Shown here one piece after another: positions 34,524 to 55,351 of a stretch of 64,000 nucleotides of DNA. Position 1 is the stretch's first letter. Each line of letters opens with the position of its first letter. Location: positions 3,157,992 to 3,221,991 of the forward strand of contig KK106982.1 in assembly GCA_000611775.1 (NCBI GenBank). The letters run 5' to 3'. The position numbers were made by a program, and so were the translations under genes. Origin of the DNA: Umbilicaria muhlenbergii (Eukaryota; Ascomycota; Lecanoromycetes; Umbilicariales; Umbilicariaceae). The notes under the pieces were generated by a model that made no database searches, was not told the origin of the DNA, and was given only the letters and a program-made list of their open reading frames with translations.

Positions 34524-37500
34524 ATGGATCCTCCACTGCGATCCCCGAGAGCAGCAGCGACCCATGTGTCACGCGTCGAGGTCACTCCGCACACATCGTT
34601 CACCGCAGCCAAAACCACGTCTGTTCCGTCTTCACTTGGTCCTTGTCACGATCAGTCTTCGGTCATGGAAGCAAGCACTCAGCAGACCTTACTACCCAGC
34701 TCACACGACGTGCTGGGCCAATTCTCTTTCGCACCAGCTACGCAGACAACAGTCGTCACGACGACCACCACTACAACAACTAGCTTCCCCCCGCTGCTGA
34801 TGAAAGGCCCTCATCATCTACGAGAATTGGATCCGAAACTGTACCCCTTAGCTTCCTCTCCTACACCATTATCAATCAAGAGATTGTGCTTTGATATTGG
34901 TGGAAGAACGGCATGTTTTCACGAAGCCGACAATGCTCTTGAGACTTTTAAGGAGGTACGGCCTCCTCCTCCCTCCAACAACGTTACACATCGTACAAGG
35001 GCTAATTTCCGTGGGTTTGATGCAGTTCAAGCAACAGCAAAAGGCCTTACACGACTCTGATGGGGTTCTCCGCTCCGTTGCAAGGTCTAGGTCTAACTAC
35101 GAAACGCCAAAGTCACAAGGTCTAGGGGCTGCAGAGACCAACCAATACTCTCAAGTGGAAACGTCAAGTCTGCGTCAGAACTCACGGAAGCGACCTGCAT
35201 CTCCAGTGTCGATTTCGGAAGCTGTCGGATTAGTTGGCCGGCAAGCAAATAATAAGAAGTTGCGTAGTACTCCAGGAAGCACTAATCCAGACCCAGCACT
35301 TCCAAAGCATTCTCTTTCGCAATCACGTCTCCAGATCTGTCAGACGTCGACACCAGTCACGCCTTCAAGAGACAACGGTGATGTGGATGAAAACTCCCCG
35401 CGAGCGTCGCGACTGCATCATCTGGATGAATACACTACCGTAGAACACGGACTAGCCATCGTACGCAACGAGCGAAAAATATTCGGGACTGTGAGTCCTC
35501 AACCTGAGGGAGTCAAGGACATGTGTTCTGGCCTGGATCGACCGACTACTTCAGTGAAACGTCCCGATGTGCCGATGATGGACCCTCAGGGCGAATCGCT
35601 GATTGGGAGAGTAAGCAACACTACCGCTACCACCCCCTTGCCTGTGCAGGCAGATTCAGGCCTTGACTTGGTCGCTCCTGAGCAGCCGGAGCGGACGATC
35701 AGGCCTCGTCCAACCGTTCTCAACACCACAGCGGTGCAGGATATGAGTCTTCCCAGCCCTAGCTTGTCACCTGTCACGGCCGCTGCAAATCTTCATAATC
35801 GCAGGGGTTACTTTGAAGATTCGGGGCTCGCAGACGTTAGTGCTAGTACTAGTTTCGAATATTCTGATGGCAACTTCCAAGATGAAACTGGGAGCGACTG
35901 CTCTGGCGGGGATCCTGCACGGTCTCCGGATACGATCACTTCTGGGCTCGCAGTTCGTTTAGCTACGAAGGCAGACTCGACCAACCGCCAAATCATGAAT
36001 CCTACCATGATGGACATACCAGTCATGCTGGATTCATTTGAGGCGATGCCGCCGGAGATGAAAACCTACGTGATGTACCAGCTCTTACGCCGATGCCCGA
36101 AACCCGTATTACATTTTGTCGCCGATGCTGTCAATCCAGCGCTGAAGTGCGATTTTTTGAGCTTGCTTCCTCTTGAGCTATGTCTCAACATCGTCGGATA
36201 TCTTGATCTAAAAAGTTTATGCCGTGCTGCTCAGGTGTCTAGAAAATGGAGAAACATAATAAATTCAGATGAGAAGGCCTGGAAACAACTGTTCGACGAC
36301 GATGGTTATGTTCTGCCAGAAGGCGAGCTACAGCGAGCCATTCAGGAAGGCTGGGGTTGGCAACATGCTTCCGGCGCTGGTGACTGGGAAAGGGACCTCA
36401 GCAAATGTATGGACGCTAAGCATGCCGACGAATGTTCAGACCAGTCTGCCCTACTTGGTGTAACAGACTCTGGCGATGCATGCAAGGGCGACAGCGAGAC
36501 ACCGAGAGTGTATAGCAAGCGGTCAAAGAGAAAAGCTATCACCAAGTCCAAAGCGACCAGTCGAAAGCAACAGAGAAGAAAAGAGCCTGGCAGCAGCAAC
36601 AACCTCGCGTCGGATTCAGGCTCATGGACGAAGCAGATAACCGCTGCCGAAGGACCTTATGCCGCTGCCAATGCCGCACTCATTGCAGTACCGTCACCCA
36701 ACAACGGGATTCCCAGTCTCAAAAATCTTCACCTCTTCAAATCTATATACCAAAGGCATCACCTCATTCGCAAAAGCTGGATGCAAGATGATGTCAACCC
36801 GAGGCATCTAGCTTTCCGAGCACATCAGCGTCATGTTGTAACTTGCTTGCAGTTTGACGCGGACAAAATACTGACCGGCAGTGATGACATGAAAATAAAT
36901 GTCTATGACACCCAAACCGGGGCTCTCCGTTCAATACTTACAGGACACGAAGGGGGCGTCTGGGCGCTGCAATACGAAGGCAATACACTTGTGTCGGGTT
37001 CTACGGACCGATCCGTTAGGGTCTGGGACATTGAGCGAAAAGTCTGTACACAAGTCTTTCAGGGACATACGTCAACCGTGAGATGCCTACAGATCCTCAT
37101 GCCCACGGAGATCGGCAGAACCCCTGGTGGCAAGCCCATCATGATGCCAAAGCAGCCACTAATCATCACTGGATCTCGAGACTCAAATCTTAGAGTTTGG
37201 AGACTGCCACAGCCAAACGACGAGACCTTCTACCAAGCTGGTCCTTCACAAGACGACACCGACTGCCCTTACTTTGTTCGGGTCCTTAGTGGACACCATC
37301 ATTCTGTTCGGGCTATTGCCGCTCATGGCGATACTCTTGTTAGTGGGAGCTATGACTCGACTGTCCGAGTGTGGAAGATCTCCACTGGCGAGACCGTACA
37401 CCAGCTACGAGGCCACAGCCAGAAGGTATACAGCGTTGTACTGGATCATGAGCGCAACCGCTGCATCAGTGGCTCCATGGACAATCTGGTTAAAGTATGG

Positions 37501-38051
37501 TCTCTCGATACGGGTTCGGTGTTGTACAATCTTGAGGGTCACTCTTCATTAGTTGGACTCCTGGATCTGCAGCAAAATCGCCTAGTCTCTGCCGCTGCCG
37601 ACTCGACGCTACGTATATGGGATCCTGAATATGGACACTGCAAGAGCACGTTGAGGGCCCATACTGGAGCGATCACTTGTTTCCAGCATGACGGTCAGAA
37701 AGTCATCTCCGGATCCGATCGGACCTTGAAAATGTGGAATGTAAAGAGCGGCGTGTTTGTCAAGGATCTTTTGAAAGATTTAAGCGGTGTATGGCAAGTA
37801 AAATTCGACGAGCGCAGATGCGTCGCCGCGGTACAACGTAACAACTACACGTATATTGAGGTAAGCTATTCATCCTCCGTCTCCAAGAGATGTACTGATC
37901 TGATGCAACCTAGGTCCTTGACTTTGGCGCCTCTCGGGACGGTTTGCCAGAGCATAAACTTGGCCGCCGTATCGTGGTCAATACTGACGGTGTGGAGGTT
38001 GCTGACCCGCACGACAATACCCTAATGGAGGCCAACCCTGACGACGAATGA
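34524..38051 (+). CDS. cdc4: F-box/WD40 protein Cdc4, SCF substrate receptor
   Basis: Exons 34524-34955, 35026-37860 and 37914-38051 give 1,134 residues. The Ser/Thr/Pro-rich N-terminal half contains RLCFDIGGRTACFHEADNAL near the first splice. A dimerisation-like segment (MPPEMKTYVMYQLLRRCPKP) leads into the F-box (about 520-570, LLPLELCLNIVGYLDLKSLC). A basic linker follows (KRSKRKAITKSKATSRKQQR). A WD40 propeller of seven or eight blades starts near 740 (HQRHVVTCLQFDADKILTGS) with repeated SGSxD...VRVWD units and basic residues suited to phosphodegron binding. In yeast, SCF-Cdc4 ubiquitinates Sic1, Far1, Gcn4 and others after CDK phosphorylation. The N-terminal extension is long but ordinary for filamentous fungi. 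It could also be called a Pop1/FBXW7 orthologue. Confidence 0.93.
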
Positions 38052-43216: not shown

Positions 43217-43819
43217 TCGGTACACTTGTTTCCCCTACCGAAAGCGAGTTGGGTAGTTGCCGATAGAGGTTGGATCTTATCACACATTCGTTCCCTCTTA
43301 TATCTTACTGCAAGATCCTCCGAGCCAGTGGCTTGTTTCCCACCTGTGTAAGAATCTAGCCGAATCCGCCCACGTAGACCGTACATACGCGACCACCTGG
43401 CACTGGACCATTCCACAGTATGTGACGTCAAGCCGATCTCTAACAGGACATGCGCTACGTGGTTGCCGATGCGAATGGCGTTTCATGATGATAAAGTTTT
43501 GTCCGCGCTGGAGGCTTACCGTAATGTGCTGGCAAGTCGGAGTCCTACAGTCGATGCTCTGCGATCTGTCGATGTTGGTTGTCCAACCACCTCGAAAGCG
43601 CAAACATGGCAGCTTGGGAAGCCTGGAATTGCTCCACAGCTGCCAAGACTTCGGTGGCACTCAATAGAACACAGAGGCTTGCCTGTAAGGATCTAATATT
43701 TGTCATCTGAATTTGAAGATGGGTCATCCGGGAAGGATTATTTTCAGCCTCTCGCCATCCGTTCCCTTCGGCTGCAAAATCCACCACCGCCCATTTGACT
43801 TGGATCCTCTTCTCCCGAG

Positions 43820-43945
43820 GCGATCGTTGTGCAACGTAGGGAACAGACATCCTCGAATGGGATGCAGTAGTGATGAGTTAGCAGCGGTAAAGGAAACCAA
43901 TTCCCCTGCGGAGAGCCGGGTCCTTTGGTAACAACAGTGGTACTG
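43820..43945 (+). repeat. Diverged direct repeat, copy 1
   Basis: It aligns by eye with 44270-44395. Shared blocks are cgatc-ttgtgcaac-tag-gaaca near the start and ccgggtccttt near the end, with moderate identity between. Confidence 0.5.
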
Positions 43946-44269
43946 TGACCGACAGGCGAACCATTAAAAGAAGTAGCAGTTTGAGGCGGAGAGATCCTTA
44001 GCAGCGTAATGATAAGGAACAGCACAGTGTCGTTCGGAAAGGCACGAGTATAGCGCTGGAGCTCAACGACTTCAGCCTTCGGCATCTGCGCATTTTCACG
44101 TCTTAGAAATTCTCATCGCTAACAGAATATCGAGGGGGGCCCTCCTCACCAGATGACTGCCACCTGTTTGGATGGTTGACGGTCTGGGCCTGCTGGAGGC
44201 GTTGGCAACTTGGGAAGATGCGGTACCCGCGATTACGGTTCACTCAGCCGGCAAGCCTCGCTCTCCACC

Positions 44270-44395
44270 GGTGACGATCATTGTGCAACATAGAGAACAC
44301 TCGTCCTTTGCCAGGATCCAGTGTAAATGCACAACTAGCTAGCGGCGAAGAAAACAATGTTCGCAGCAGAATACCGGGTCCTTTGACAGCAAGCG
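44270..44395 (+). repeat. Diverged direct repeat, copy 2
   Basis: It pairs with 43820-43945 and lies about 450 bases downstream. On the minus strand both copies encode a VxKGPG-containing peptide in an open frame, so the duplicated unit may once have been coding. Confidence 0.5.
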
Positions 44396-45360
44396 TGATG
44401 CTCCAGTTTATGTAGGTGCCCGATGGACCACTGGCGGTGTTGGTCGAGGCCCGTTTCTGGCCTGTTTCTTGCCTGTTGATATTCTTTTCTTCGCACGACC
44501 CGCGGTTATGGCACCCATGCACTTGCAGGGGGTTTGACCTGGTCCCTGGGAACCCAAGGATCGAGAGACGAAGGACCCTTGTCCGAGTAGTGGTAGAGTA
44601 CAGGTGCAGGCCTCCAGAGTGCACGACGGTAGTCGTATCACTTCTCAACGATACTTGATAGACGGAAATGTTTGGTGGTGAAATGGTAGTGCTTGACTGC
44701 TGCTCCCCTTGCGCAGTTGGCCATTGCCGAGTATGTGCTCAGGCTCTGACGCTGTTCTCTTCTTCAATCGAGATCGTGCCACCAAGTGTGTCGTCCAGTC
44801 AAACCGGCCAGAGTACGCCTTTCCCAAAGCGTGAAAGCCCACATGAACAACTCGCAAAAACCAGGCACCCCGCTACCATATTATCTACGCTCCCACCTGT
44901 TCACCACTAGCCTCAGCCAATAATGAGGCATGTCATGATCAGAGAAGCATCATAATCAATCACCATCATGGTCCACCTCGTAATAACCGGCTTGGACGGC
45001 CCGCGAACTGTGATGGCCATGCCGGACTAGAACAATGGACGACAACCTAAGGCCACCACGGATCGGACTCGGCGGCCATGGTCTGTTGCATCCAAAAACT
45101 AGGGGAGACACCCATGGGGCTTGTTCTTTAGCGTGCTGGCCTAATCAAGAGCCGTCCCGCCCTAGACGCGAACATAAAGCCCGTGGCTCGCTGATTGCGC
45201 ATGGCTTCATCACTCCTCATCACTCCTCTCTACCTCCGCTCCGCCTGTGTCGTGCGATTACGGCTTGCCTCAAGTGGCGAGGTGCGCCATCATTGTGCCA
45301 ACATGCAGCCGCACTGATCCGTATACAGTCACTTCCCTTGATTATTGATCGCCAGCAATC

Positions 45361-46851
45361 ATGGCCGAAGTGCTTCTCGAAGCTGACGAGGTACGCTTCG
45401 GCAAGTGACTCTGCTCAGACCAACGGGAGCTAATTCGTCCAGCATCTATCCCAAAATGATGACATTCTGTAGGTACCCACCCACGCCACATTATCTCGGT
45501 ATGATCTACTCCTTATCCTTACACATACCAAGGGAACTCGATTCGAAGTCGCTCAGCGCCAGCGTCTTGGACTACGAGTACGAGAATGGAAGACGTTATC
45601 ATGGGTATAAGGCGGGGCGTATGTGGACATTTTTCGTTGGCAAGTCCGGTCGACTGACCCTTGAGACAGATTATCCCATACCGAACGATGAGGTATACTT
45701 CGTGGCTTAGTGTCTAGGCGCATGACGTTTTCTGATCCAAGCGTCTCTGCAACAGTCCGAGCTCGACCGTCTCGACCTACAACACCACCTCCTGACCGTG
45801 CTGCTCGGTGGGAAACTACACTTGGCGCCGCTGAAGGAACCCAAGAAGATTCTAGACCTCGGCACCGGTACTGGTATTTGGGCAATTGACATGGCAGATC
45901 TATACCCGGATGCAACAGTGATTGGAACGGACCTTTCGCCTGTACAGCCTCAATGGTGGGTAGCCTCCACTAATATCTCTCCTCTGGAATGCTGACGACT
46001 TTTACTGTAGGGTTCCCGACAACGTCCACTTCGAGATCGAGGACGTGGAGAGCGACTGGACATACACCGAAGACTCGTTTGATTACATACACATTAGGAT
46101 GTTGATCGGGGCTATCTCAGACTGGAGTTCCATCATACGGAAAGCCTACAGGTACTGACAATCCATGGGCATTCTCCACTATGATGCCCCTACTGAGAGT
46201 CCCTCTATATAGGCACTTAAGACCAGGCGGCTTCGTCGAAATCCAGGAACTCGATCCGCGAATGACAAGCGACGACGATAGCCTCCGCCCCGACAACATC
46301 TCCAGGATTTGGTCCAACCTAATCTGCGAAGCCTCTGAGAACTATGGCCGCCCCATCCCTCGCGTCACGGAGTACAAGTACTGGCTCGAAGAAGCGGGCT
46401 TCGCGGAAATCAGGGAGACGATCCACAAGCGTCCTACGAATACATGGCCCAAGAACAAACAGCTCAAAGAGGTTGGAAAATTCCAACTCTTGAACTACTC
46501 AGAGGGTTTGGAAGGCTTGTCGGTTGGATTGTTCACGAGAGGCTTACAGTGGCAGCCGGCGGAGGTGCAGGTGTTGGCGGCGAAAGTGAAGACGGAGTTG
46601 AAGAACAAGAGTATACATTCGTATCAAAATATGTACGTCGTCCTTTTCTTGCTGTGATATAGGATTCGACAGGACCGAAGTTGACGGATTCCAGGGCCGT
46701 TGTATACGGGCGAAAGCCTGAGACGGCGCCCCCAAGTACAGGGGCCAGAAGCGGGAGAAGGAGCCTTGGCGCTTCCCGGCCGACAGACAAGACAGCTTCA
46801 AGCACAAAGGACAACGCTTCCGCAAGGAAATCCAATGGCTCGGGTACATAA
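45361..46851 (+). CDS. LaeA-like SAM-dependent methyltransferase
   Basis: Eight exons: 45361-45390, 45443-45468, 45533-45618, 45670-45692, 45756-45955, 46011-46151, 46213-46632, 46695-46851; 360 residues. Several exons are 23-30 bases. The intron 45619-45669 is 51 bases with no in-frame stop; splicing it yields YKAGHYPIPNDESELDRLDL, a hallmark of this family. Preceding it is VLDYEYENGRRYHGY. SAM motif I is ILDLGTGTGIWAIDMAD (about 87-103), then VIGTDLSPVQPQW, VPDNVHFEIEDVESDW, FDYIHIRMLIGAISDW and LRPGGFVEIQELD. The C-terminus after the last splice (AVVYGRKPE) again matches the family, followed by a Ser/Thr-rich tail. Some relatives (LaeA) control secondary metabolism with velvet proteins; many are uncharacterised. 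No biosynthetic cluster lies nearby. Confidence 0.9.
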
Positions 46852-49380
46852 TTTGCAAGCTCACGAGAGCAGCATCCTCGAGACACCCATAGTAGCCGTT
46901 GTGAGTCTAATGCGGGAGAAAGAGGTTTCCGAATGCATATGTTATCCTGCTGTATCGAGCTTCGAGACTCTTGAAAGCGGTTTAGATGGGGGAGATCAAG
47001 AACTACTATCTTAAAGAAGCGCAGCTAACGATGTGTACCAATGTCACGAGGCAAAGCGCCGGGACGAAGGGGAAAATATTCAATGATACTGTTCAACAAC
47101 AAGAGCGAATGCTCTGGGGGGCAGGTTTTTACCGCATGTGTTCTGCACAATGCTTACCTAGTGCCGACACTTCACGACGATAAAGTTTCTTCTCCTTAGT
47201 CACTCATCCCTGCTCGGAGAACGACCAGGAAAACCGATCCCAGATGCAGCGTTCGTGAATAGAAATTGAAAGGACGGCTTGGCCTGGAAAGGTGGATGCA
47301 AGCACTGTGGCCTTTTCAGCCATGGTAAGCTGAGCCATCAACCGCAATATGGCGATTGGCGATAGCTGTGCCCGCGAGCCCAATGTGCCTTTGAAATAAA
47401 ACTAAGACAGACGTCAACAGTGATGATGCTTGCAAGAGTATCGGACACAAGTCATGAATAGAGGGATACATCCCCTCTGCGGGACTTGGCAAAAAGCAAC
47501 TGGCAGGTGTGTGAACCAAATAAGTGACAGTTGTCAACTGGTGATCCCATCAACCACTTAGCATGCAAGATAAGCTTAAGGACTGGTGAATGCAGAGATG
47601 GTGGGAGCATAGATACCTACAAGTTTTACCCCAGGAACTAAGATATATCGCTTTCACTGTTATAGTGCTGAGAGGAGCTTCAGATAAAGGCGCTCACTTA
47701 TTTTGATCACGCGCCTGCTGATTTTTTTTCTCCATCTATGACTCATGTCCGATACTCTTACATCTGAGCCAGTTTCCATTGACACCGAGTTGTTTGGTAT
47801 TAAAATGCATTTTCCCGCGCGGCGTCTATATCCCATATATATAACACGACAAGCTGAAACATAGAACACGTATAGGCTTAATTTGCATGCATAGATAATC
47901 CTGGTACTGTGGCATTGCGATGTGCATTGCGAACAGTTTTAGTCAACCTCCTCAGCCCTCAGGCCGGATCAACTCAGGCGCAGCATGGTAACACCAAAAA
48001 ACCAGATGAAAATGGTAGCTCCAGGTAGATGCTAGTATTACGAGCTTCAATTGTTCTCGTTTCGCATTGAAGAGTAGTCTAGCGGATGGTACGTTTCATC
48101 CAAAACTTCATCTACCAGTGATGCCGCAGGAACAGGCTCAGATTGGAAGCATGTAGAAGATAGAAATAACAATGCGCAAAGCCATACGAGGTATGAGTGC
48201 ATTTGAAACAGGTACTGCATGAATGTACTCGGATAAATTAACAATATTCCGTAAGGCTAGGACTTCACTCGAGGTGGTGCATCCAAGGACACAGGACACG
48301 GCGAGTAAGTGGGTAATGCTATTTCCGTGTTCAAGGCTATGGCGGACCGAGGCCGAAAACAAATTTCGGCGGCGCTTCCTCTGCCTTTGTAACACACCCA
48401 TGAACGACTCGGCGGGAGTGGGGTGGGGGGATTCCTGGCAGCTGCTCGTTGCTGACATTAGGAGCCGTGAGCAGATGGATGTATCACGGCAGAGGGCCTT
48501 CCTGATTGCACGGCAAAGTTTTCGGACGGTGGGCCATTTGGCCTATCCTCCTTACGGCGACTAGCTGGGTGCAGATGGCGTAGAGCTGTGCCGGTATCAT
48601 TGGGAATCCTCGAAGCGTTCGTACGAAAGGGGCGCCCAAAAGGCTCAATAATTTCCGCACGCAGATCTTCGAGGATCGAGGATTGGTACGCGTAAGGTAT
48701 GTCTTATGCGAGTACTCGCCTCCGATTCGCTTCCATGTGCAAATGTGCTGGAGCGGACTCACATCAGGAAGGTAGGTTGGCTGCGTACGGAGCAGTGGCG
48801 AGCGCAGCTCCTTCATTGTATACATTCTTCGCGAATGCTGTAGCTATTTCTTGCCTGTTGAGACATGGTCGCCTTCGTAGTGCAAGCAAGGAGAGACGGA
48901 TAGCTCCGAGTGGATGCTTGGCGAGCTCCTCTGTGGCTGAGGAAGGAGGCTGAGGCGGAAGAATGCACAGGCGGGACCGAGGTTCACCATTGCTCGGGCC
49001 AATCACAGCGCCATGCCAGGATCTGGCGATTTTGCCTTCGTAGGAGAAGGAAGCAGATCGGCGCTGGCTCGGCTGGACAGTAATAATAACATCCTATCGT
49101 TGAGCGCGCCGTTGTCCCCAGGGAGCTGAGTGATGATCTAGGAAGTCATCTGGACACGGAAGCGTGAAAGCATGTGCTCGTTGATGGCCGTGATGCTTGT
49201 AGAAATGCGTCGGAGAGAGATCACCAGCCACCAAGGACACATCAGAGGGCTTGGTTCACACGGACTCGCCTGCTGAATCAGGCTCTGCATCCATCACCAC
49301 CATCATAGTGATCATCCATCAACCAGTGTTCAACGATAGTAGTATCGCCACTCGATTGGTGAGACATTGCACCACAAGGG
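46852..49380. other. Gene-free stretch before the cyclin leader
   Basis: About 2.5 kb with only short scattered frames and ordinary ATG frequency on the plus strand. No RNA gene, mobile element or repeat is recognised. Confidence 0.5.
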
Positions 49381-49386
49381 TATAAG
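49381..49386 (+). promoter_or_regulatory. TATA-like box, candidate core promoter of the Pcl-type cyclin gene
   Basis: The sequence gggTATAAGcacc lies 27 bases before the start of the long ATG-free stretch and about 2.2 kb before the cyclin start codon. Its position is what a transcription start near 49410-49440 would need. This is inference from position; no transcript evidence is available here. Confidence 0.4.
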
Positions 49387-50570
49387 CACCGGCATTCATC
49401 CAGCATGTTTCTCCACCATTCCAGAGGCCCAGTGACTTGTGAGTCTCGGTCATCTTCAACCTCAGCCGATTATCGCGGATCCGGCAGACCAGTCGTTCAG
49501 CGCAAACCTCCTCGCATCAAGAACCAAGCAGCAACGGTCGCGGGGTCCAACTCTGGAACGTGTGTGCTCTTCCAAGCAACACCTCCTTACGCCTTACCCT
49601 ACGCAGGGGACCCGACAGCAAATACTCCAATTCGAGTGCTAGATAATACGGTACTCACCTGCGACGTACCGAAGCGGGTAGCATCTCATTGTCCAGTCAT
49701 TCCTCGAAAATCCCTGGTGAATCTACGGCTCTACGTTTCACCGCAAACGGAACCCTCGTGCAGGGTGGAAGCATCTGCCATTTTCACTTGATCAGCTTTG
49801 AGTGGTTGGCTACTTGAAAGGTGAAACGCGTGGGCGTGCTGTCACCGGGGGGGTCCACCGACATTTGCTCCCAATCATTCCAGTCATCCCCAGTGTGCCC
49901 GTGCTCTCGCACCAGCGAATCACGGGGCGCCCCGCTCGAGCTGCCAAGATTGGAGAGAGGCAGGGGTCGCTGAAGTCGCGCGCTACCGGGAAGTATCCAG
50001 CCATAGGCGAGAACGAGCCCAAGCGTTAGGGAGCATTAGAGGAGCATAGCCTGTAAGGCTAAGACGCACAAGCATACCTGAACCAAGGGGACCCGCCTGC
50101 ACAGGGGGCACAGGAGCGAAGCATCGGAGCCTTGGAGAGGGACGGAGTCGATTCAGCATCATCCAGGCTTGAGAAGGGGTGTGTTGGAGTTTTGAGCTGG
50201 CAAGCCTGCGGGCGGCGAGACGACGAAAGCAGCCAACCAGTCCATTTCCAGCTCTGGATTGTTTCCCCACACGCTGGGGCCAGGATCGAAATTGGTCTGC
50301 AACGAGCGCCCTTTGCACTCCAACCAACAGCCACGCGCACAGGAAGGGGGAGACACGGGGCTAGCAGCGCAGGCTATCTTAATCCTCTGCTGCCCCGTGT
50401 ACTATTTTACTTCAAACGATTAGGGAAGAAGGGGCGCCAGTGACCAGCACGACACATTATCAGTGTGCACAGGAGGCGATCATTCTCGTCGAGTCATAAG
50501 TATCATTCATCACCCGCCTTCACTTCGAAACACACACCTCTCCCCACCATTCGACAGCCGGCCACCGCCT

Positions 50571-50600
50571 TCGCATTTGCATTCGCATTCGCATTCGCAT
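50571..50600 (+). repeat. Hexanucleotide tandem repeat (TCGCAT)n
   Basis: Five consecutive 6-base units (tcgcat, one variant ttgcat), inside the putative cyclin leader. The unit carries CAT on the sense strand but never ATG. Confidence 0.85.
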
Positions 50601-50678
50601 TCCTTCGTCACCGGTCGCTCGACTTCACGCCCCTTCACGAAGTATATTAGTGTTGCTACTCCCCCTCACCGGCTTGAG

Positions 50679-50730
50679 GTTGTTGTTGCTACTGCTGCTG
50701 TAATCATTGTTGCTTCTGTTGCTGTTGCTG
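50679..50730 (+). repeat. Imperfect GTT/GCT trinucleotide tract
   Basis: A run of ttg, ttgct and ctgctg units interrupted by taatcat. It lies inside the putative leader. The opposite strand would read as CAA/CAG repeats, but no supporting ORF exists. Confidence 0.7.
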
Positions 50731-51586
50731 CGCCAGAAGGAATCATTCGGGAAGCGCCTTAGGACTAGCCCTGCCGCTCGACAAAGATTTCCCGCTTAAG
50801 CAACCCCGCCTCGGCCGCCTCCCCCAATACGCCTAACAGCACCGTCCCCTGGAACCTCGATCCTTCGGGCCTAGGTCAGGCACAGTCCGGGGCGTTTCCT
50901 CAACAGCCATCGGCCTTCGTTTACCCCCGCCCACCCTAATCCACTAAGCGACTATCAGCTTCGCCGTGCGCCATCCGCCTGCTGCGATCCAAACCCCCTC
51001 GGTCTGCCTCGACAGCGCAGATAGCAAGCAACATTTACTTGTGACTTGTACGTCTTGCGTGCGGAAGGAAAGGCGGTAACGCAGCGAATCCTAGTCATCA
51101 GATTTCCGCCGGACGGAAAACTGCAGAAGTTATTAATTCACACGGTCCTCCACACGAGATTTCACCTGACGCTTCTATTGACCCTATTGGCCCTTCTATT
51201 GTCGACGACGCTCGAGACGGAGCAGAAACGCCTTTGACCTTCACGATATAACAACGCTTACGATCCACACACGGTCTGCTACTTTACGTCTTACGATCTA
51301 CCATCTAGTAATCCGGAATCCAAGGCACTCATAGACTAATACAATACCCATATCTCCCGCTTACACCGACATAACGTCAACTCAGCCTCTACAAGGCGCG
51401 ACTGTCATATCCTCACCTCGCCAACCCGGCCGACACACAGACCGATCAGCCCGCAGCTTTAGCTCAAGCACTTCAACCTCAGGACATCTACTTCTGTGGC
51501 ACAGGACGATAGCCTAACGACCTGAAGCTTAACCCAAAGTCTCACATAAGTGAAGCTTGCCTTGACATCCCCTCCAAATCAACAAG

Positions 51587-52846
51587 ATGGCACTACCTAC
51601 TCCAGCCCAGAACCAGGCGGCCTTGGACGCTTTCGTTATGTCTCCGGTGTCGTCTTCGATGGTTTCGTATCTTGCAATGATGGCTTCAAATGTCATTCGA
51701 TGCGAGCAGCAGCCACCATTAACAAACAAACACCTGCCGCCAACCCCACCGGCAACTCCACCGCAAGACCCAGAGACGCGACTACCGCTTCAGCCGGCAC
51801 TTCCTTCGCTTGAGGAGTTCATCCAATCGCTTGTGGACCGCTCGCATGTCCAAGTCCCGACTCTGATGAGCTCTCTCGTCTACCTCTCCCGCCTCCAACA
51901 ACGATTACCACCTGTGGCCAAGGGGATGCGGTGTACAGTTCACCGAATCTTCCTTGCCTCGCTTATTCTCGCAGCGAAGAACTTGAATGATTCTTCTCCG
52001 AAGAACAAGCACTGGGCTCGCTACTCTTCGGTCAAGGGATACGAGGGCTTCGGCTTCTCATTAACCGAAGTCAATCTTATGGAGAAACAACTACTTTTCC
52101 TCCTGGACTGGGATCTACGGATCACAACCGAAGATCTCTTCACCCACCTCGAGTTCTTCCTCGCGCCCATCCGCCAGAAGCAGCTCGCCAAGGAAGAAAT
52201 CAAGCGCCAAGTCCAGCTCCGCGAGCTTGTTCTTGTCGCCCAGAACCAACAACAAATCCGTGAGCGGTCTCCCCATCTTGCGCTCTCCGTCCGCAGCGGT
52301 ACTGGTTCCGCAAAGAGTGCGTACAATTCGCCCGCCGGCTACAGCTCGACCACATACGTCAAAGACCTCGAGCGCTACTCAAACGCCACCCCACCGCCAA
52401 AATCTTACCAACGCCGCCAACAGCGCCCCTCCCGCTCCGTCTCGCCTCCCTCGGCCGATGCCGTTCCCGGCCTCGTCCACTCGGGTACCGCCAACAGCCT
52501 GGGATCCACCTCCTCGTCGCGTGCTTCATCGATATCTCCACCACCATCGCGAGGCACGCCGTCCTCAACCATGTCATCCTACGTCGACGACACCGCCTGC
52601 GTATCCTCGGAATACGACATCGCAGCTTCCTACAGTGACGGTAACTCCAGTCCCTACGCCGAGAGCATGTACAAACTGCGTCCGACGCTCGGAGCCCATC
52701 AGTTGAGCTACACGGGCGATCTGGAGAAGCCGGCGAAGAAGGCGAAGATGGCCGGCGGCATCATTCAGAGGTTCTTCTACTCGGCCGCGGGGGCGTATCA
52801 GGGTGCGAACGGCACGGCGAGGGTCAGGGTGGGGAACGCGTACTGA
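51587..52846 (+). CDS. Pcl1/Pcl2-type G1 cyclin (Pho85/PhoA-family CDK partner)
   Basis: A single exon of 419 residues, first ATG in a good context (aagATGg). After a short N-terminus ([18 protein letters not shown]) and a Pro-rich segment, the cyclin box (about 65-185) reads [60 protein letters not shown] and [20 protein letters not shown]. The rest is Ser/Pro-rich and disordered, ending in a basic [20 protein letters not shown] segment. In yeast, Pcl1/2 bind Pho85 and act at Start and in polarised growth; in Aspergillus relatives act in conidiation. It is preceded by the ATG-free 2.2-kb region, so its translation is likely regulated through a long leader. Confidence 0.92.
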
Positions 52847-53854: not shown

Positions 53855-55351
53855 CTAAGCTGCGGCCTTCGCGTCATGCCAATCCTCGTGTTCGTCAGAA
53901 ACTCGCGGCGACGTCTGGTGAGGTGAATGTGCACCTCCAGGAAGGGTAGAGGGAAGGTCTTCTTCAGAGTTAAGCGGGGAGACCTGGTATGGAGTAGGGG
54001 TATCATGATAGCCATGCTCCTCTACGGGCGCTTTGATTCCAGGGGCTTGAATGTACTCAAGAGGGAGCGGCCCATCAGCTTCACCATCCGACATGGTCGG
54101 CCATTCTTTCCTGTTCTCACGTCGTCGGCGCCAGTAGATACCAAGGACTATAACGGCAGCCAAGGCCGCCAAGGCCGCCAGACATCCAATAACAATGCCA
54201 GCGATGGTACCCGCTAGCACGGATTTGGATTTGAGTTTGGGTTTGGATGAAGGAGTGGGAGAGGTGGTGAGATTGGAATTGGAAAGCGTAGGAAACGTAG
54301 TCGCGTTTGTGGACGCTGAGGATGCCGCCATAGCGCCCTGCGCTGCTTGACCTGAACTAGAGGCTGGCGTAGATGCCGAAGTTGCTACCGTCGTATTGGC
54401 GTCTGTACTGACGATTGTTAAACTGATGTTATTGCCAGGATTGTCCTTCTGGCCGACCTGAAGACAGTAGTTTCCGCCTGGTTGCAGGGTTGGTACTAGC
54501 AGGACGTCAGCTACTGGACGTGGATAAGGAATCACCTTTGTCTTACATAGTACGAAGTCTACGGTTGTTGGCTCCTCATGGTTGGTGAGATTGTCTATTG
54601 GAGACATGTCAGAATGAACTTCGTAAGAAATGGGAGTGCACATACAAGTTTTGGATTCAGCGGCAAGGCTGTCTTGCAGTAAGGTTAGAGTTATGGATCT
54701 AGGGTTCTGTGCTGTTAATTTTGCTTTCACTGTTCCTCCAGCATGGTATCTATTGTTGGCACTCGGACTCGTCAGAATCGAAGGAGGACCATAGTGTGAC
54801 ATTGTGACAATTGACATAGTTGTTGTTGATGGAAATTCTGGTACCGGTGTAGTCCCTATGATTGGTGTTGATGTTGTAGATGCCTGTCCTGAGGATCTTT
54901 GTGGTTCCGTAGACTCATCCATACCGGAATTCTTGGGTTTCGTTGTGCTGGAGATGCTTGTCTTGTCTGTTGGTGTCGTACTTGTGGATGAGGTAGATAT
55001 ACCCGTACATGACGCCTGTGACAGATTAGCATCTGTTGAGCTTGGTATTATTGGGCAACTCTGAGGTGCTCGGTGGTTTCAATGCAGAAAAACTCTTCGA
55101 GGTTGCCCTTACACGTGCGTCGCTAATGGAATTATTCTTGCGCAATCCATGGCGCTAAATCAGTACCCTCTAAGGTCAAAAAGGCTCTGCACTGTCGTAT
55201 AGCACGGATGTGTGATGCATGCAGAGAAGTCAAGGAAAGGAACAAAACGTACAGCGCAGTTGTTACCCTGGGGAGCTTGCGCCAGAGTGTCGTTCTGAGT
55301 CATAAACAGCACAACAAGCGCAGAGAACGCATTCAGGAATGTTGGTTTCAT
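53855..55351 (-). CDS. Secreted-entry single-pass membrane protein, Ser/Thr-rich
   Basis: Exon 1 (55253-55351) encodes a signal peptide, MKPTFLNAFSALVVLFMTQ, followed by QAPQGNNCA. The long exon 53855-55015 resumes in frame with ASCTGISTSSTST. A 42-base internal exon (55113-55154, RHGLRKNNSISDAR) is flanked by AG and gtaagg and keeps the frame; its use is uncertain (433 residues with it, 419 without). The extracellular part has a probable folded domain (YHAGGTVKAKLTAQNPRSIT ... LQPGGNYCLQVGQKDNPG) and Ser/Thr stretches suited to O-glycosylation. A transmembrane helix (VLAGTIAGIVIGCLAALAAL...) is followed by a stop-transfer RRRRENRK and an acidic cytosolic tail of about 90 residues. The topology resembles fungal wall sensors, but no WSC domain is seen. 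Function is unknown. Confidence 0.78.

Follow-up and report, generated by a model that had tools for sequence, protein, structure and literature searches.

A 2.2-kb ATG-free stretch ending at a cyclin start codon in Umbilicaria muhlenbergii, read as a putative AUG-free 5′ leader

Long 5′ leaders on cell-state regulators have been described in Candida albicans, where PMC6034079, in the parts concerned with leader length, gives 3,041 nt for UME6, 2,978 nt for WOR1, 2,071 nt for CZF1 and 1,139 nt for EFG1. The same account has the UME6 and WOR1 leaders lowering translation and the EFG1 leader raising it, and describes a 4-aa AUG uORF in EFG1 for one strain that is absent in SC5314. The long isoform of NDC80, as summarized in PMC9604717, carries nine uORFs and is not translated. 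In the yeast reporters of PMC12415969, which covers lengths up to 500 nt, an unstructured leader of 500 nt rather than 50 nt lowered translation about twofold, structure was strongly inhibitory, and UCC and ACCAC were termed inhibitory. Long leaders in Cryptococcus and Neurospora are presented in PMC7049704 as AUG-rich, with leaky scanning past weak AUGs, and complete AUG avoidance in a mould would therefore be unexpected from that description.

With respect to cyclins, Whi3 has been found with the CLN3 and PCL2 mRNAs in yeast, direct binding not being shown in the passages of PMC3875557 concerned, which link Whi3 targets to GCAU/UGCAU sites, in some cases close to the start codon, and report motif enrichment in 3′ UTRs. 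A table in a review (PMC10253035) includes Aspergillus nidulans PclA among Pcl homologues and gives phialides as its site of action. The main text of the Neurospora PCL-1 paper (PMC9815767) does not contain the words 'UTR' or 'untranslated'; as PCL-1 is compared there with Pcl6/7/8/10, it may not be the counterpart of the cyclin considered here. An AUG-free cyclin leader of the length reported below was not found among the titles listed in literature searches, at most 20 papers for each, which is no proof of absence in print.

The locus lies in a 64,000-base stretch of Umbilicaria muhlenbergii DNA, all of which was analysed and which we call the window. The initial annotation had claimed that 2,179 bases of its plus strand are devoid of ATG and that this run ends at a cyclin start codon, and both claims were borne out. 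By direct count, a plus-strand ATG at 49405 is followed by the next at 51587, leaving 0 ATG in the 2,179 bases of 49408-51586. The ATG at 51587, at which the run terminates exactly, is in good context (AACAAGATGG) and opens a 419-aa frame whose cyclin membership exceeds the curated cut-offs of both PF00134 (E 2.2e-11, 44 bits, cut-off 23) and PF08613 (E 9e-9, 36.4 bits, cut-off 21). From its residue patterns, this cyclin is a candidate for the Pcl1/2 type. It had zero matches among PDB sequences at E 0.001, and a scan of viral contigs found no relative. The features of the locus are:

49381..49386, plus strand: TATAAG, a TATA-like element and, as a positional clue, candidate core promoter of the long transcript
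49405..49791, plus strand: last upstream ATG with its 128-aa open frame, no Pfam match
49408..51586, plus strand: ATG-free stretch, read as a putative uAUG-free leader of about 2.0-2.2 kb
49408..50490, plus strand: distal half, G 28%, C 29%; 0 ATG against 11.5 expected
49560..49820, plus strand: weak candidate intron of about 260 bases, with donor GTGTGT/GTGTGC, branch TTGAT and acceptor AAG
50491..51586, plus strand: proximal half, C 34%, G 19%; 0 ATG against 9.3 expected
50566..50602, plus strand: tandem CGCATT hexamers, 6.2 copies, with five GCAT at 50573-50600
51587..52846, plus strand: cyclin open reading frame, 419 aa, with Pfam matches; start context AACAAGATGG

The Candida leaders resemble this stretch in measuring 1-3 kb on cell-state regulators, as far as PMC6034079 describes them, but they belong to transcription regulators in a yeast rather than to a cyclin; EFG1 is the nearest of these cases, and its leader is half as long as 49408-51586. 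Like the putative leader here, that of the repressive NDC80 isoform is long, begins at an upstream start and belongs to a cell-division gene, but it has nine uORFs in the account of PMC9604717, whereas 49408-51586 has no AUG at all.

Several other frames were noted in the window. An F-box + WD40 protein is recognized by Pfam at 34852-38025 (plus strand). By its architecture, it is presumably Cdc4/SconB-like. About 8 kb (43235-51565) contain no open frame of at least 200 aa on either strand; a 158-aa frame within it (46181-46657) appears by eye to be part of a methyltransferase and has no Pfam match. Convergent with the cyclin, a 355-aa frame on the minus strand (53855-54922), also without a Pfam match, has a Ser/Thr-rich N-terminal part and a single hydrophobic segment, as in a surface protein that crosses the membrane once. 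Elsewhere in the analysis, the complex I 51-kDa protein of this genome scored best against PDB 7zm7 (Chaetomium; 707.9 bits), ahead of 6gcs (Yarrowia; 623.4 bits), as would suit a filamentous ascomycete.

The absence of ATG is confined to the sense strand and to this triplet, and it ends at the start codon. On the minus strand, 49408-51586 contains 44 ATG (counted as CAT), a recount in agreement with the figure of about 43 given initially. The window as a whole holds 1,071 ATG on the plus strand and 1,120 on the minus strand, a rate from which 36.5 would be expected arithmetically on the plus strand in 2,179 bases. A first-order Markov model built on the stretch itself expected 20.9, and is conservative in that its AT and TG counts already come from a sequence without ATG. 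The initial annotation had put the expectation at roughly 30. Relative to the Markov model, ATG was the lowest of all 64 triplets (z -4.57; next triplet -1.69), and in 3,000 dinucleotide shuffles of the stretch the mean was 20.9 ATG and the minimum 9, compared with 0 observed. The Poisson probability of zero ATG is, by arithmetic, about 8e-10 when 20.9 are expected and 1.5e-16 when 36.5 are expected. Windows of 2,179 bases elsewhere in the 64 kb, none touching the stretch, contain at least 22 ATG (plus) and at least 19 (minus), and the next-longest ATG gaps in the window are 379 (plus) and 416 (minus) bases. CTG, GTG, TTG and ACG were not depleted (34, 28, 34 and 44, against Markov expectations of 31.4, 18.4, 25.0 and 34.7), the excess of GTG and TTG being partly forced by the absence of ATG. 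Sense-strand ATG therefore falls below the expectation from composition (0 against 20.9) and antisense ATG does not (44 CAT), as selection against upstream AUGs would have it. Furthermore, the depletion is independent in the two halves, whose border near 50490 was placed by eye on composition: 3,000 shuffles of each gave a mean of 11.5 and a minimum of 4 for the 1,083 distal bases (49408-50490), and a mean of 9.3 and a minimum of 2 for the proximal half (50491-51586), with 0 ATG observed in both.

The longest ATG-free run after this one, on either strand of 344,767 sampled bases, measured 803 bases, compared with 2,179. The sample comprised the window and 42 loci, after removal of one locus that overlapped another and of repeated cyclin loci; it was systematic and amounts to about 1% of the 34.8-Mb genome (7 contigs), and further runs of more than 1 kb may exist elsewhere. 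It was drawn from 20 stretches of 10 kb spaced every 500 kb along contig C1, from 16 kb adjoining the window, and from the loci of cyclin, KilA-N and GATA matches. Two of the sampled runs terminate at the ATG of a longer frame:

L025:6968-7771, plus strand: 803-base ATG-free run, C-rich, terminating at the ATG of a 321-aa frame
L019:2163-2743, minus strand: 580-base ATG-free run, terminating at the ATG of a 149-aa frame

As these runs end at frame-opening ATGs, the genome seems to have other uAUG-free leaders of a milder kind. The 803-base run resembles the cyclin stretch in being C-rich, free of ATG and closed by the ATG of a frame, but it has under half the length. The type of this gene was read by eye (a Zn-cluster protein, then an acetyltransferase), and we take the 149-aa frame to be the start of a Rat1-like exonuclease. 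The final ATG of a 752-base run (L032) opens a frame of 14 aa, giving no evident gene start, and that of a 706-base run (L037), which contains a 233-aa open frame, opens one of 11 aa.

An ATG-free leader was rejected as a general cyclin trait. At 12 other cyclin loci (counted after merging repeats and the window's own copies), read on the true sense strand, the longest run was 383 bases (L004), or 415 where cut by an edge (L011), within flanks of about 1.5 kb that longer or intron-interrupted leaders could escape. Neither was it seen as a trait of APSES or GATA regulators, whose longest sense-strand runs are far below 2,179 bases: 251 and 234 bases for APSES (L038, L039) and 544 bases (L044) among six GATA loci (L042-L047, with L048 dropped for its overlap with L045). 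The 544-base run lies on the minus strand of its locus (sense coordinates 345-889), upstream of the GATA-domain match, and ends at an ATG with a 61-aa frame.

The stretch is in two parts, in composition and in predicted folding. Mean fold energies per 100 nt were -26.5 for the distal half and -17.2 for the proximal half, compared with -25.2 for the upstream flank (47300-49404) and -22.9 for the coding sequence. When folded as 1,000 nt, the proximal segment 50491-51490 gave a z of +2.04, and all 20 of its shuffles folded at least as well; for 49408-50400 in the distal half z was -0.33 (7/20 shuffles at least as stable), and for the last 300 nt of the leader -0.95, such that structure above chance was not found in any of these three segments relative to shuffles. 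The proximal half is thus predicted to fold less than the flank, the coding sequence or its own shuffles, and the distal half to fold like the flank. The idea, raised initially, of scanning through structure is weakened, as structure is not uniform along the stretch.

Of the shorter elements, the TATAA at 49381 sits 24 bases before the ATG at 49405; TATAA occurs 24 times on the plus strand of the 64 kb (0.011 per 30 bases). The ATG at 49405 probably lies just upstream of the transcript start, and would otherwise constitute a single uORF. By analogy with yeast, the CGCATT array is a candidate cluster for a Whi3-type RNA-binding protein. GCAT is modestly more frequent than expected in the leader (13 against 9.4), five of these falling in the one tandem array, and TGCAT occurs once (2.2 expected). 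The likeness to CLN3 and PCL2 is that of G1 cyclin mRNAs with GCAU sites, the candidate GCATT cluster here lying in the leader; the difference is that sites in yeast are enriched in 3′ UTRs, by the description in PMC3875557, whereas here there is a hexamer microsatellite in a putative leader. TTG/CTG-rich repeats follow the array near 50,680-50,730. Among other motifs searched in the leader, TGTANATA occurs 0 times and CNYTCNYT three times (2.0 expected). The trinucleotide UCC occurs 45 times and ACCAC 0 times; going by the reporter data in PMC12415969, 45 UCC count against the leader reading set out below.

Judged from sequence, 49408-51586 likely serves as the cyclin mRNA's 5′ leader, a largely unspliced one of about 2.0-2.2 kb from which purifying selection has purged AUG. 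Selection against upstream AUGs, as the initial annotation had supposed for a transcribed leader, is the best account of the strand, triplet and composition tests because the absence affects one strand, is AUG-specific and ends at the start codon, and because composition, forward open frames, Rfam families and a simple intron scan fail to explain it. That this leader exists as RNA, and is transcribed, little spliced, scanned and regulated, we infer. Transcription would start just after the ATG at 49405, possibly from the TATAA at 49381; an unselected ATG density of 1 per 60-104 bases would place the start within about 180-310 bases of 49405 (95%, by arithmetic). A second start may lie near 50.5 kb and would produce a leader of about 1.1 kb. 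Ribosomes would load at the cap and scan the entire leader to its first AUG, the cyclin's own, in good context, and the clearing of the whole length suggests a constraint acting through ribosomes that load at the 5′ end. The structured distal part would slow initiation and make it dependent on the supply of initiation factors, and the proximal part could provide sites for RNA-binding proteins, such as the GCAUU cluster. Initiation capacity and the choice of start site could then determine cyclin output, with no upstream ORFs involved. This output would be expected to be modest and tunable, because of the roughly twofold cost of length, the strong inhibition by structure and the UCC/ACCAC effects in yeast reporters.

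A reading that overlaps with this one, and that we regard as a serious contender at somewhat less than even chances, is that transcription has two starts, with a leader that ordinarily spans the proximal 1.1 kb or so and a longer, condition-specific isoform that also takes in the distal 1.1 kb. The shift in composition and folding near 50.49 kb is consistent with such an arrangement, as is the precedent of Candida EFG1, which has both a long and a short transcript according to PMC6034079. However, the start at 50.5 kb is hypothetical. Moreover, if the long isoform were repressive, as in NDC80, upstream AUGs would be expected to stay, yet the distal half has 0 against 11.5 expected; their absence over the whole length argues against an isoform of this kind.

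Alternatively, the proximal 1.1 kb or so alone could be the leader, and the distal half promoter DNA that is free of ATG by chance or for another cause. The distal half resembles ordinary intergenic DNA in composition and folding, matching the upstream flank in both, and could be a promoter. Nevertheless, the 0 ATG in its 1,083 bases, against 11.5 expected and a minimum of 4 in 3,000 shuffles, make this alternative improbable.

We consider it very unlikely that ribosomes reach the start codon by internal entry or shunting near it, with the long leader acting as a regulatory RNA. The great length of the leader and the strongly folding distal half would suit such a mechanism, though the latter does not fold above its shuffles (z -0.33). 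Under such a mechanism, no selection would act on AUGs 5′ of the entry point, yet all 2.2 kb are free of AUG; this argues against internal entry and weakens the suggestion of it in the initial annotation. Additionally, the proximal half is weakly folded, and no Rfam family matches in 49408-51586, which led us to reject a known RNA family as the explanation; the one Rfam match (E 0.62, below the gathering score) is on the minus strand inside the coding sequence.

Slighter still is the possibility of coding exons in the stretch, of a cyclin that extends N-terminally into it, or of a leader rich in introns. Stops interrupt each forward frame, and the longest frames that remain open have 142, 126 and 112 aa; frames of 112-142 aa could be taken as coding, but the four examined, including 49363-49788, had no Pfam match, and the cyclin frame is bounded by a stop 21 bases upstream of its ATG (the frame begins at 51566). 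A coding stretch and a cyclin extension were rejected on these two grounds. A strict scan for donor, branch and acceptor, whose donor list took in three of 12 donor-like sites, yielded no intron set; when widened to all 12, it gave two overlapping weak sets, equivalent to one possible intron of about 260 bases. This single weak candidate at 49560-49820 is the one point in favour of an intron-rich leader, which was also rejected, as introns would carry neutral ATGs.

Finally, chance or a compositional effect is hardly credible, for although the proximal half is C-rich and G-poor and its expected ATG accordingly drops from about 18 at the window rate to 9.3, the model already includes composition and expects 20.9 (shuffle minimum 9, observed 0), and about 1.4 million gaps per genome at 8e-10 per stretch would yield some 0.001 such runs (arithmetic).

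The putative AUG-free leader of this cyclin is a new and extreme form of the long fungal 5′ leader. More speculatively, and with a good deal of doubt, we propose that an AUG-free leader of more than 2 kb is scanned end to end by the 40S subunit, so that cyclin synthesis would reflect the capacity for initiation by way of scanning distance and structure in the distal part rather than by uORFs, making the leader a scanning-length sensor for cell-cycle entry. Should the stretch be a single leader, it would provide evidence from nature that scanning over about 2 kb can be demanded of ribosomes, and that the genome removed every AUG to permit this scanning. In that case, a mould would exert translational control over a G1-type cyclin through a very long leader that has no AUG uORFs.
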